NCBI GenBank assembly: GCA_024998565.1
Contig: JACOEM010000015.1
Location: 1 to 64,000, forward strand
Length of the DNA: 64,000 bases
Source of the DNA: Nitrospira sp.
GTDB taxonomy: Bacteria; Nitrospirota; Nitrospiria; Nitrospirales; Nitrospiraceae
Direction of reading: 5' to 3'
This document shows, one piece after another, positions 3,502-10,582 of this stretch. The position numbers and the translations under genes were made by a program. The notes under the pieces were generated by a model. It worked only from the letters and a program-made list of their open reading frames with translations. It made no database searches and was not told where the DNA came from. Each line of letters begins with the position of its first letter. The stretch's first letter is position 1.

Positions 3502-3642
3502 TTGACACCGCTCTCGTAGCCCTATAGGGTGAACCGATGACGTACTGAGCCACGCCGGCTTTCTCCTTTCGCGCGCACGTTCATTCCCTCCCTCACTCCC
3601 TGCGCGTGCGAGTCCCAAGTCTTCGCCGCTTCGACGCCACAG
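3502..3642 (+). promoter_or_regulatory. Promoter/leader repeat, copy 1
   Basis: First of three related elements (others at 7198-7330 and 10114-10243). TTGACA at 3502 is followed exactly 21 bases later by GTGAA, with TATAGG just before it, so the 5' edge looks like a promoter. The next ~115 bases share ATGACGT, TGAGCCACGCCG, a pyrimidine-rich stretch with CCTCC/CCTC runs, and TCTTCGCCGCTTC.ACGCCA with the other copies. It precedes the micro-membrane protein genes by about 110 nt. Confidence 0.65.
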
Positions 3643-3672
3643 AACAAGAGTCCAGCGATGGTAGGCCCGCTG

Positions 3673-7035: not shown

Positions 7036-7197
7036 GAGCTGCGGTGAAGCCTCGCCGGGCCCATTCTCTGATCGGTGAGGGAGCCATGTGGTTCGGCGAT
7101 GTTCCGATGTCTCTCGTCGTTGGGAGCATAGGTTTCATGTGTACTCCCTTGCTGTCTCCCGGCACGAGTCAACCTACGGACTAGGCCTCAATATCGC

Positions 7198-7330
7198 TTG
7201 ACTCCGATCGCCATAGCGCTTAGCGTGAAGGTATGACGTCTTTAGCTCCGCCGACTGTTCTCTCCCTCGCGCTTCGAGCCTCCATCCCGCGCGACTGATC
7301 GTCCGGTCTCCGCCGCTTTTTACGCCAGAG
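7198..7330 (+). promoter_or_regulatory. Promoter/leader repeat, copy 2
   Basis: Related to the elements at 3502 and 10114. TTGACT at 7198, then exactly 21 bases, then GTGAA; next TATGACGTCTT, TTAGCTCCGCCGACTGT, GAGCCTCCATCC, and GGTCTCCGCCGCTTTTTACGCC. It ends about 130 nt before the A-type Fe-S carrier gene and presumably drives that gene and perhaps the two OFOR beta subunits. Confidence 0.65.
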
Positions 7331-7463
7331 TGCCCTGCACTGACCGATGATGCCGTCTTCGTGAACGGAGCGATTGTCGCTTCCGGCGAGGAGCGGTGTC
7401 GTGACCAGCAGTTCCATCCGACACCATTATCCGTTTCATATAGCAGTACAAGGGAGCACCAGT

Positions 7464-7784
7464 ATGATTACCATCACGGCAACGGCTGAAGAGAAAATTC
7501 GCGAGTTGATGCTGGAAGAAAAAGATACGCTCGGGCTGCGTGTATATGTAAAAGGCGGGGGCTGCCACGGCTATCAATATGGAATGGCGTTCGAGTCGAA
7601 GATGAGCGACGACGATACGGTGATTGAAAAGGGTGATGTGAAAGTGATCATGGATTCGCAAAGCGCTCCGCTGTTGAGCGGCTGCGAAGTCGATTATGTT
7701 GACAGCGTGCAGGGCTCGGGCTTTGCGATCAAGAATCCACAAGCCAAGACGACCTGCGGATGCGGTAGCTCATTCAGCGCCTAA
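7464..7784 (+). CDS. A-type Fe-S cluster carrier (HesB/IscA/ErpA family)
   Basis: A 106-residue protein of the usual family length that receives or carries Fe-S clusters and passes them to target enzymes. The three conserved cysteines are present: Cys34 in GGGCHGYQYG and Cys98/Cys100 in the C-terminal TTCGCGSSF. ATG 7464 follows GGGAG by 8 bases. It stands between leader copy 2 and two ferredoxin-dependent oxidoreductase subunits, whose holoenzymes carry several 4Fe-4S clusters. A role in maturing these enzymes is a reasonable inference. Confidence 0.92.
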   Translation: MITITATAEEKIRELMLEEKDTLGLRVYVKGGGCHGYQYGMAFESKMSDDDTVIEKGDVKVIMDSQSAPLLSGCEVDYVDSVQGSGFAIKNPQAKTTCGCGSSFSA

Positions 7785-7809
7785 TCCCCGCGCGCGTCGC
7801 TGTCTTTGC

Positions 7810-7970
7810 ATGATCGTCACTGTGACTGAAGGCGCACCATTTCAAGAAGTGAGCCTGTCATCGCCGGTCCGCGAGTGTGTGGCGGGATGACCATGCCTCC
7901 GGAGATTATCGTGGAAGAGATTAAGCGTGCCCTCGGGGTGCGTTCCGGCACGCTCGCCGGTCGCGGGTGA
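7810..7970 (+). other. Two overlapping micro-ORFs, coding status uncertain
   Basis: 7810-7890 encodes 26 residues (MIVTVTEGAPF ... RECVAG) and overlaps 7887-7970, 27 residues (MTMPPEIIVEEIKRAL ... LAGRG), through ATGA. Neither has a strong Shine-Dalgarno sequence. Together they could be a coupled pair, remains of a frameshifted small gene, or non-coding. Confidence 0.25.
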
Positions 7971-8052
7971 AGTGTAGCGGATCAGAGAATGGGAACGGGC
8001 TTGGTACTGTAAGCAGCACATTGACGCTCAGCAGGGCTGAGAGGAGATAGAT

Positions 8053-8949
8053 ATGAGCAAGGAACGCATCAAGATTTCGCCGGAGTTGTACGACATCATG
8101 CCGTCGGACTACCAGGACCTTGTCAGCAGCGCCACATACGGCAAGGAAGACCGGGGATGGAAGGACATCGGTACCTCCAAGGAACTCATCGAGCAGCATT
8201 CCCTGTGTGCCGGGTGTCCTGAATCCATGGCGTTTCGATATATTCTGGCGTCGCTTCCCAACCCCGAAGACACGGTCATGGTCGGCTCGACCGGTTGCAC
8301 GAGTCTCGTGTTTCCTATGGTGGCCGTCCACAACATCCACTCCCTGTTCGGCAACCAGAATGCGATCGCATCGGGGCTCAAACGGGCTCTGAGTGTGCGT
8401 TTTCCCGATCGCGTGAAGGATGTGGTCGTGTTGGCGGGAGACGGCGCGACGGTGGACATCGGTTTGGACATGACCCTGCAGGCCTGGTTTCGGCAAGAAA
8501 AATTCACGACCATCTGCTTCGATAACGAACTCTACGCCAACACCGGCGGGCAGGAGAGCGGTCTGATGCAGAAGGGGTTCGTGGCCAAAATGGCGCCGGT
8601 CGGAAAGCTGTTCGATAAAGTCCGGTTGCCTGAAATTGCCCGGGAGTCCGGCTGTCACTACGTGGTCAATTGCACGGTCAGCAAGCCCTCTCTGGTCGAG
8701 AAGGTAGTCCGCAACGCGGTGCTGATCGCCCGGGAAATCGGCCCGACCTATCTGCAACTCTATACGCCCTGCATTCTGGAGATCGGCAAGAACAGCATGG
8801 AGGGTCTGCAGGAAATGCGGGACTCCGAGAAGCCCACGGAACGGTTTGCCTTCAAAGAATATATCAGCGAGCCGGCGAAGCAGCTCCTGGCGGAGCGTGA
8901 TGCCAAGGCCAAAGAAAAGAAAGCCGCTGCCAAGCAATTGGTGTCGTAA
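8053..8949 (+). CDS. 2-oxoacid:ferredoxin oxidoreductase, beta subunit (TPP-binding), copy 1
   Basis: A 298-residue protein. OFOR beta subunits bind thiamine pyrophosphate and a 4Fe-4S cluster and catalyse oxidative decarboxylation of, or reductive CO2 fixation onto, acyl-CoA (pyruvate or 2-oxoglutarate synthase in the reductive TCA cycle). CAGC at 52-55 supplies cluster cysteines, GDGATVDIG from residue 129 is the TPP/Mg motif, and FDNELYANTGGQ (156-167) completes it. The start follows GAGGAG. The C-terminus is a Lys/Ala-rich tail. No alpha, gamma or delta subunit lies in the window, so the partners must be encoded elsewhere. Substrate cannot be told from sequence. Confidence 0.93.
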   Translation: MSKERIKISPELYDIMPSDYQDLVSSATYGKEDRGWKDIGTSKELIEQHSLCAGCPESMAFRYILASLPNPEDTVMVGSTGCTSLVFPMVAVHNIHSLFGNQNAIASGLKRALSVRFPDRVKDVVVLAGDGATVDIGLDMTLQAWFRQEKFTTICFDNELYANTGGQESGLMQKGFVAKMAPVGKLFDKVRLPEIARESGCHYVVNCTVSKPSLVEKVVRNAVLIAREIGPTYLQLYTPCILEIGKNSMEGLQEMRDSEKPTERFAFKEYISEPAKQLLAERDAKAKEKKAAAKQLVS

Positions 8950-9001
8950 GCGGGAGGATTATCACCGCCGCTTCCGCGGCAACGAGAGAGCGAGGTTTCA
9001 G

Positions 9002-9895
9002 ATGAGTCTTGATTATGTAAAGTTTACTCCTGGTTTCGAGCAGTTCATGCCGAAAGAATATCGGGATATGGTCGAACATGGACCGTTCGGAAAAAAGACG
9101 ACGGTGTCGCAGATGGGCAGCTTCAAGGAAATCCTCGAGGAGCACCCGATGTGTGCCGGCTGCGCCATGACCCTGTTCATCCGGTTGGCGATTATTGCCT
9201 TTCCGAATCCAGAGGATACTATTACCGTCGGGACGGCGGGCTGCGGCAGATTGGCCATCTCGCAAGCCGCGATCCCGTTCGTGTACGGGAACTACGGCGA
9301 CCAGAATGGAGTCGCGAGCGGGTTATCGCGCGGACTCCGGCTCCGTTTCGGCGACAAGCCGAAAGATGTGGTCGTAATCGCGGGTGATGGAGGAACCGCC
9401 GACATCGGGTTCCAGCAGGTGCTGCATTCCTGGTTCCGAAAGGAACGGTTTACGACCATCATGCTGGACAACGAAGTGTATGGTAATACCGGTGGACAAG
9501 AAAGCGGCATGACGACCAGAGGCGCCGTGCTGAAGATGGCTCCGCTTGGAAAGAAGTTTGAAAAGATGGACATGGTCACGATGGCTAAAGTCGCTGGCTG
9601 TTCTTATATCGCCACGGTCGTGCCGAACAATCCGCGGCGGGTGGAAAGCGTCATCAAAAAGGCTGTGCTGATCGCCCGGGACATCGGCCCGACCTATATT
9701 CAAGCCTATACCTCATGCAACATCGAGTACGCGATTCCGACCGACAAGGTGATGGAAGACGCCAAGACCGTGGAAGACGATCGTTACAAATTTACCGAGT
9801 ATGTCAGCGACGAAGCGAAGGCGTATCTGGCCGAGCGCTATGGCTACAAGGAATTTATGCCGAAGGCCGTCCCTGCTTCCGTCACGACGGCCTGA
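9002..9895 (+). CDS. 2-oxoacid:ferredoxin oxidoreductase, beta subunit (TPP-binding), copy 2
   Basis: A 297-residue paralogue of the preceding gene, starting 52 nt after it. CAGC is again near residue 54, AGDGGTADIG and LDNEVYGNTGGQESG form the TPP site, and the end (VSDEAKAYLAERYGY) matches the other copy before the tails diverge. Substitutions around the active site (AGCAMTLFIR against AGCPESMAFR, TAGCGRLAIS against STGCTSLVFP) suggest different substrates or partners, for example pyruvate against 2-oxoglutarate; this is inference. The ATG at 9002 is preceded by GAGG. Confidence 0.93.
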   Translation: MSLDYVKFTPGFEQFMPKEYRDMVEHGPFGKKTTVSQMGSFKEILEEHPMCAGCAMTLFIRLAIIAFPNPEDTITVGTAGCGRLAISQAAIPFVYGNYGDQNGVASGLSRGLRLRFGDKPKDVVVIAGDGGTADIGFQQVLHSWFRKERFTTIMLDNEVYGNTGGQESGMTTRGAVLKMAPLGKKFEKMDMVTMAKVAGCSYIATVVPNNPRRVESVIKKAVLIARDIGPTYIQAYTSCNIEYAIPTDKVMEDAKTVEDDRYKFTEYVSDEAKAYLAERYGYKEFMPKAVPASVTTA

Positions 9896-10113: not shown

Positions 10114-10243
10114 TTGACAGAGCCGGTCGTGCACTGTAGGGTGAGGCATGACGTCTTGAGCCACGCCGACTGTCCCATCTTGCGCGCCTCCTTCCATCCT
10201 TCGCGCGTCTGATTCCCCGGTCTTCGCCGCTTCTACGCCAGAG
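10114..10243 (+). promoter_or_regulatory. Promoter/leader repeat, copy 3
   Basis: TTGACA at 10114, 21 bases, then GTGAG, with TGTAGG just before it. The rest keeps CATGACGTCTTGAGCCACGC, CGACTGT, a GCGCCTCCTTCC run and CGGTCTTCGCCGCTTCTACG followed by CCAGAG. The element is followed at 10254-10267 by a short hairpin (AGACC, ACCA, GGTCT) and by the CsbD-like gene at 10340. Confidence 0.65.
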
Positions 10244-10339
10244 TTTCCATCTCAGACCACCAGGTCTCGGCATGCGTTCGCGCGTGTCGGCCCTTACAAC
10301 GGTGTGGCGCGATGCTCGCCACCGATCAAGGAGAATGCA

Positions 10340-10582
10340 ATGACACAGGAGCAATTCCAACAGTTCTGGCTGCAACTTAAGGCTCCCCTCAAGGCCAACT
10401 GGGAGAAGATTACGGAAAGCGATCTCGGTGAAATCCAGGGCAGCCTGGTGAAGTTCGGTGATGTGCTGCAGAAGCGTTATGGTGAGGGACACAAGGACGA
10501 AGTCAGTCTGTGGGCTGATCGTCGGCATGCGCATTGGAGCGGAAATTACATCGGATACAAGGATCCGAAACCAACGGCTTAA
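10340..10582 (+). CDS. CsbD-like stress protein
   Basis: An 80-residue protein starting MTQEQFQQFWLQLK. The N-terminal 50 residues (LKANWEKITESDLGEIQG, GDVLQKRYGEG) match the CsbD-like pattern of short charged helical proteins that bacteria make under general stress. The C-terminal 30 residues (HAHWSGNYIGYKDPKPTA) are an extension. AAGGAG precedes the ATG at 10340 by 6 bases. Placement behind leader copy 3 suggests stress-dependent expression of the whole leader family. Confidence 0.8.
   Translation: MTQEQFQQFWLQLKAPLKANWEKITESDLGEIQGSLVKFGDVLQKRYGEGHKDEVSLWADRRHAHWSGNYIGYKDPKPTA

Follow-up and report, generated by a model that had tools for sequence, protein, structure and literature searches.

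Orphan oxoacid:ferredoxin oxidoreductase beta subunits behind an Fe-S carrier gene in Nitrospira: a candidate operon for stress-inducible spare subunits

In air, Nitrospira use the reductive TCA cycle for CO2 fixation, despite the oxygen-labile Fe-S clusters in their two ferredoxin-dependent carboxylases. The closest described relatives of the genes analysed here are the five-subunit oxoacid:ferredoxin oxidoreductases (OFORs), i.e. POR and OGOR/For, of Hydrogenobacter, Aquifex and Nitrospira. According to passages of PMC4058850, the Thermococcales have one gamma subunit that is common to POR and VOR. Moreover, passages of PMC8115632 describe OFOR isoforms related to oxygen conditions, namely For versus Kor in H. 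thermophilus and a four-subunit POR in N. marina.

The locus studied here lies within a 64,000-nt stretch of DNA from Nitrospira sp. (GenBank assembly GCA_024998565.1, contig JACOEM010000015.1, positions 1 to 64,000), hereafter the window. Its two beta subunits, beta1' and beta2', belong to the betas of the five-subunit OFORs, but the locus comprises only these two betas and an Fe-S carrier and has no alpha, gamma, delta or epsilon of its own. As in the Thermococcales, subunits of two OFORs would combine with a part that is encoded once; there, however, one gamma serves two enzymes, whereas in our case it is the betas that are extra, and the two enzymes they would serve are already complete. 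The H. thermophilus and N. marina isoforms resemble our case in that they provide a second set for the same reductive TCA cycle activity, presumably employed when oxygen conditions differ, but they are whole alternative enzymes, whereas the locus encodes near-identical single subunits only. In the titles and abstract openings of the mostly non-subscription literature searched, we found no description of the beta pair or of the leader RNA in front of it.

Gene content and partner subunits

The original prediction of an Fe-S carrier gene followed by two tandem OFOR betas, with the partner genes absent, is borne out by NCBIfam and Pfam matches and by a search of the host's own genome (Table 1). 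The carrier, erpA', scores 132.2 bits with the ErpA equivalog NF010147 (cut-off 117), and the C-terminal TPP-binding domain PF02775 is found in both betas with 62.7 and 66.7 bits (cut-off 21.9). As had also been claimed, the TPP motif is intact, GDG..DIG being kept in beta1' and beta2' as judged from sequence, alignment and inspection by eye. Likewise, alignment and inspection place four cysteines of each beta at the cluster-ligand positions (C52, C55, C82 and C240 in beta1'), following the description of the OFOR beta TPP motif and the four [4Fe-4S] cysteines in passages of PMC10052474. The NCBIfam equivalog and subfamily models for PorB, KorB and VorB give at best 110-113 bits, below their cut-off of 405, and betas of the five-subunit type seem to lie outside their reach. 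The start of beta2' is placed at MSLDYVKF (9002); the listed open reading frame begins earlier, at 8846.

Table 1. Coordinates of the features of the locus and of related elements in the window
Feature	Position	Strand	Remarks
Third promoter copy	3502..3530	+	TTGACA - 17 bp - TAGGGT
Third leader copy	3536..3645	+	R1 59.1 bits
Operon promoter	7198..7226	+	TTGACT - 17 bp - TAGCGT
Hairpin leader (~100 nt) of the erpA'-beta1'-beta2' operon	7232..7333	+	22-genome alignment; R1 115 bits
erpA', A-type [Fe-S] carrier	7464..7784	+	NCBIfam ErpA equivalog
alpha' 3' remnant	7830..7967	+	OFOR alpha residues 357-402, 72% identity
beta1', OFOR beta subunit, 298 aa	8053..8949	+	PF02775
beta2', OFOR beta subunit	9002..9895	+	PF02775
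Second promoter copy	10114..10142	+	TTGACA - 17 bp - TAGGGT
Second leader copy	10147..10246	+	R1 89.5 bits
CsbD/YjbJ-like small protein gene behind second leader	10304..10582	+	NCBIfam PRK10428, E 4e-6, below cut-off

The host genome comprises 4.13 Mb in 19 contigs, of which the window represents contig C15. In this genome alpha (PF01855) exceeds its cut-off on C13, C6 and C12 only, gamma (PF01558) is found on C12, C6 and C13 only, and C15 carries no OFOR alpha, gamma, delta or epsilon gene. Thus, the locus lacks the alpha, gamma, delta and epsilon that would stand beside the beta in a five-subunit cluster. A two-subunit enzyme of the Kor type (KorAB), in which a gamma domain is fused to alpha, is ruled out as well: the window is devoid of alpha', and the alpha' of a relative, G023 (400 aa), consists of POR_N and PFOR_II with no gamma domain.

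Two complete five-subunit OFORs, each with its own beta, are encoded elsewhere in the genome, operon A on C13 (delta-alpha-beta-gamma-epsilon, epsilon being a ferredoxin) and operon B on C12 (beta-gamma-epsilon-delta-alpha). The alpha of C13 resembles peptides assigned to POR alpha in N. marina in passages of PMC8115632, and this resemblance is the sole ground for terming C13 POR-like; C12 would then be OGOR-like by exclusion. The beta of operon A (C13:69758) and beta1' are 96% identical, that of operon B (C12:25662) and beta2' 91%; beta1' and beta2' share 44%. As there are two complete frames, each with a beta that has its close copy in the orphan pair, the single alpha/gamma frame which the original prediction had the two betas share has to be given up, and they are not the sole OFOR betas of the genome. 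Of the two findings that had been named as speaking against that prediction, complete OFOR operons with their own betas and a lack of expression of the pair, the former is present. erpA', too, is a near-copy, 86% identical to its paralogue, the housekeeping erpA (G000:C9:160638). Among 20 genomes searched for close erpA copies, that of the window has both, and 17 genomes without the locus as well as G054 have one each; G131, which has no locus, contains three erpA copies at 75-81%.

The genome has a third OFOR, divergent and made up of gamma, alpha and beta, at G000:C6:147545-150447 (L012), with neighbours that look arsenic-resistance-like by eye; according to passages of the N. marina paper (PMC8115632), a third OFOR cluster is rare in Nitrospira. 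Directly behind operon A lies a gene that we identified by eye as a serine recombinase (L010:10138-11760). In lineage-II genomes the gene after beta2' (L176:8379-9131, also L173, L191 and L195) has at its end a domain 36-44% identical to a small protein behind operon A (L010:9698-10039). Operon A seems to be absent from G016, G022, G024, G009 and G040, where the orphan betas might complement a missing operonic beta; we rejected this idea, as contig ends are often close to operon A, which makes assembly gaps likelier than a true absence.

Modular loss and selection in relatives

We read 41 places, i.e. the window and 40 loci, which represent a part of the genomes with extra betas (G057, G066, G068, G111, G112, G126, G128 and G130, among others, are outside this set). 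The full arrangement erpA'-alpha'-beta1'-beta2' is found in eight places, four carry an alpha remnant between erpA' and beta1'-beta2' (the window, G003, G018 and G001), and eight have erpA'-beta1'-beta2' without any alpha. The most frequent arrangement is erpA'-alpha'-beta2' (16/41); most lineage-II loci read have kept alpha' and beta2' and lack beta1'. Five arrangements occur once each: erpA'-beta1', alpha'-beta2' cut by a contig end, an alpha fragment followed by beta2' (G054, taken as N. moscoviensis), a cut beta1' followed by beta2', and beta1' with a remnant of beta2' behind it (the second place in G051). The loss of parts is thus modular, alpha' having been lost in the window and beta1' in most lineage-II loci read. 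In G051 the locus is present as two split copies (L193, L194) with complementary losses, erpA'-alpha'-beta2' and beta1' with the beta2' remnant. In G001, taken as N. defluvii, an insertion with istA/istB-like frames, of IS21 type by eye, splits beta1' near codon 50-56 (L157:4890-7116) and beta2' is intact.

As the remnant of a deleted alpha gene lies between erpA' and beta1', the orphan state of the beta pair is derived. The deletion extends from the alpha' Shine-Dalgarno sequence to about codon 356 and has the junction AAGG, a 4-bp microhomology that is present at both deletion ends in intact relatives. All four remnant alleles have the same junction, which makes a single deletion likely. In an rpoB tree the alpha-bearing genomes G023 and G028 are placed among those with the remnant allele, so that this allele was probably moved by recombination; the operonic genes of G003 cluster apart from its locus genes, which fits such a transfer. 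(The tree tags G009 as having no locus, although erpA'-alpha' lies at a contig end of G009, and its changes in presence are an overcount.) A functional mini-alpha made from the remnant is thought unlikely, given the short frame, the stop in G018 and the lost alpha Shine-Dalgarno sequence. The locus as a whole is absent from 12 of the 29 genomes of the genus, some of them complete, and is thus dispensable.

DNA trees split the orphan from the operonic copies along a single branch (SH-aLRT 98 for betaA and 100 for betaB), and the duplication therefore predates the split of genera g1, g14, g15 and g17. The alpha tree also separates the locus from the operonic copies; the branch uniting the locus copies is poorly supported. 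Within the genus, dN/dS is 0.013 for beta1' and 0.0075 for beta2' (n=14 each), compared with 0.005 (n=20) and 0.007 (n=16) for the operonic betas and 0.009 for rpoB (n=20), these ratios being rough because dS is near saturation in the operonic set. Alpha-less and alpha-bearing loci give similar values for beta1' (0.0128, n=8, versus 0.0126, n=6) and for beta2' (0.0087 versus 0.0070), which argues against a relaxation after the loss of alpha'. The orphan betas are thus under strong purifying selection with or without alpha', and chance or a pseudogene pair is ruled out by this and by their conservation. A duplicate on its way out would account for the serial loss of parts, i.e. the deleted alpha', the lost or interrupted beta1' and the beta2' remnant in G051; with a dN/dS of about 0.01 that is the same after alpha' loss, intact frames in distant species and a conserved promoter and leader, we regard such decay as improbable.

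In PFOR structures alpha contributes one half of the TPP site, which is missing from a beta on its own, and the orphan betas must therefore join an operon-encoded alpha. Together with the full purifying selection, the lack of own partners means that they must assemble with alpha and gamma encoded elsewhere. Of the proposed exchange of betas this much, i.e. the use of borrowed frames, is supported; the single frame and the different substrate use are not. The residues that distinguish orphan from operonic copies are few, conservative and located outside the TPP and cysteine motifs, i.e. a divergence of the active site between them is not seen, the orphan-specific residues give no functional hint, and different substrate use finds no support.

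That a locus-type beta may work in an operonic enzyme is suggested by the operonic betaA of G014 (L200). Of its diagnostic columns, the first five (codons 5-83) are of the operon type, and 11 of the 12 that follow (codons 147-291) bear locus-type marks. When the two halves are placed in separate trees, the N-terminal one groups with operon copies and the C-terminal one comes closest to locus copies, though this second placement lacks strong support. The gene is probably the product of gene conversion between the paralogues; if so, a largely locus-type beta would function in the operonic enzyme.

Exchangeability might go further. In hybrid enzymes alpha', beta1' and beta2' would swap between the frames, e.g. 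an A-type alpha' with a B-type beta2', and thereby alter substrate use or oxygen tolerance. The 16 erpA'-alpha'-beta2' loci, which place an A-type alpha next to a B-type beta, are in keeping with this, as is the absence of gamma from the locus, since partners must then be borrowed. However, the differences of beta1' and beta2' from their operonic copies are conservative and spare the motifs, alpha' is gone from the window, and with an identity of only about 51% between alphaA and alphaB cross-pairing cannot be taken for granted. We consider hybrids distinctly unlikely, if less so than decay.

Promoter and leader RNA

A block from about 7187 to 7345 upstream of erpA' is common to 22 aligned genomes. 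Among the 25 upstream regions compared, those of G115 and G116 have no block directly before erpA' and a copy further upstream, and that of G107 has a degenerate block. With R1, a covariance model of the leader hairpin, a fourth copy was found in the same genome at C9:45216. One to six copies occur in 21 of the 29 genus genomes, and the eight genomes without any copy all lack the locus, too. Copies other than that of erpA' are present in 17/17 genomes with the locus (including G002 and G009, where only leader-erpA'-alpha' was seen) versus 4/12 without it (Fisher p 1e-4, relatedness ignored). As the search covered the genus, with 139 first-look candidates per genome, copy counts are lower bounds.

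Both sides changed in 12 of 21 pairs of a model-fitted alignment (82 distinct rows), with a covariation score of 0.200 versus 0.129 for shuffled alignments and none of 500 shuffles as high. A sequence-only alignment of 82 copies, obtained from 85 by removing three reverse-strand self-matches of the palindromic leader, contains 62 both-changed cells compared with a mean of 24 and a maximum of 36 in 300 shuffles. Several inner helix pairs hardly vary. By these compensatory changes the leader is a structured RNA. A plain stable hairpin is not an adequate description, and two results count against the structure: the folding energy is ordinary (z -0.73), and RNAalifold on the copies in front of erpA' alone gave few such changes (4/33 pairs), compensatory support coming only with diverged copies. 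The leader resembles the cis-regulatory 5' leaders of Rfam in its hairpin of about 100 nt, in its inferred location where several transcripts begin and in its compensatory changes, but matches none of them: the copies at 7232 and 10147 have no hit among 4227 families at E up to 1, nor do copies from three further loci. At gathering scores Rfam finds nothing except rRNA in the whole window, whose start (1-553) lies in the 3' part of a 23S rRNA gene, with 5S rRNA behind it.

Upstream of the leader, 89 of the 93 copies examined (of 14 further places, L407, L409 and L410 were left out as weaker or odd matches) show a promoter-like pattern, i.e. TTGACN, a spacer of 17-19 bp and a (T/C)A...T hexamer. 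The spacer is 17 bp in 84 of these 89, the downstream hexamer is mostly TAGGGT, TAGCGT or CAGGGT, and the distance to the leader is 2-12 bp, being 4-5 bp in 75. The promoter of the operon reads TTGACW-17-TAGSGT, and the tighter form of the pattern occurs three times in the 64 kb on both strands, once per leader. As the pattern lies just upstream of the leaders, the transcript should begin at the leader's 5' end. A weak match to the leader at L409:2455-2554 (E 5.5e-4) is followed by a gene resembling, by eye, that of a Crp/Fnr-type regulator.

CsbD, BON, DUF2934 and Hsp20 are generally taken as markers of stress genes. The leader at C9:45216 is followed by genes for CsbD (PF05532, 4.6e-15), BON (3.2e-32) and DUF2934 (7.5e-14), and in other genomes Hsp20 is also found behind the leader; a DUF1328 match is weak. 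Behind the second leader of the window the CsbD-like assignment is weak, too, the product having no Pfam match, and behind the third leader come a membrane-type protein of 49 aa and one with a helix-hairpin-helix domain (HHH_3). The presence of this promoter and leader ahead of the operon and of csbD, BON, DUF2934 and hsp20 genes is new here, and the common cassette and its neighbours suggest that the operon is tied to general-stress genes. The stress-type leader and the deleted alpha gene at the same locus go beyond what had been predicted.

If the operon merely raised the amount of betas and carrier, with no role in stress, the near-identity of orphan and operonic beta proteins would be expected, and passages of PMC8115632 report OFORs to be very abundant in N. 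marina. However, the promoter-leader links the operon to stress-type genes and was not found at the operonic OFOR or housekeeping erpA loci searched (L010, L011, L012, L197, L217, L233, L237, L343 and L357), and a need for dosage would favour the copying of whole operons. Extra dosage is thus unlikely in our view, though less so than hybrid enzymes.

Proposed spare subunits for oxygen-labile enzymes

We favour, with somewhat better than even confidence, the reading that the operon provides stress-inducible spare beta subunits together with a carrier, which would assemble with operon-encoded partners and replace damaged subunits. An accessory operon erpA'-alpha'-beta1'-beta2' may have arisen when core genes were copied from three sites on the chromosome, i.e. 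the housekeeping erpA, operon A (alpha and beta) and operon B (beta), and the pair in the window would be what this species retains of it. It would be expressed from the promoter-plus-leader cassette common to general-stress genes. Upon stress, fresh betas, each with its TPP site and one [4Fe-4S] cluster, might thus be made along with the carrier that loads their clusters; beta1' would join alphaA-gammaA-deltaA-epsilonA and beta2' alphaB-gammaB-deltaB-epsilonB, and the reductive TCA cycle would be kept running. It is the association of the betas with both an Fe-S carrier and a stress-type promoter-leader that points to a supply of fresh, loaded subunits upon enzyme damage. Several observations count against spare subunits: alpha' and beta2' without beta1', i.e. 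an A-type alpha with a B-type beta, are not predicted by a simple replacement of cognate subunits, the locus is dispensable, beta1' is broken in N. defluvii, and the orphan residues are uninformative.

More tentatively, and leaning towards doubt, we speculate that the 5' leader RNA of Nitrospira represents an undescribed class which, with TTGACW-17-TAGSGT, defines a general-stress regulon, and that erpA'-beta1'-beta2' is its dedicated subunit-replacement repair system for two oxygen-sensitive CO2-fixing enzymes, letting an aerobe run the reductive TCA cycle. A stress-linked operon that encodes one catalytic subunit per enzyme and a cluster carrier would offer a testable answer to how this is possible, namely repair via subunit exchange. 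The promoter-leader cassette may serve as a handle on a stress regulon in these hard-to-manipulate bacteria. Finally, the modular loss of alpha' and beta1' constitutes a natural experiment, suggesting that parts of multi-subunit enzymes are exchangeable.
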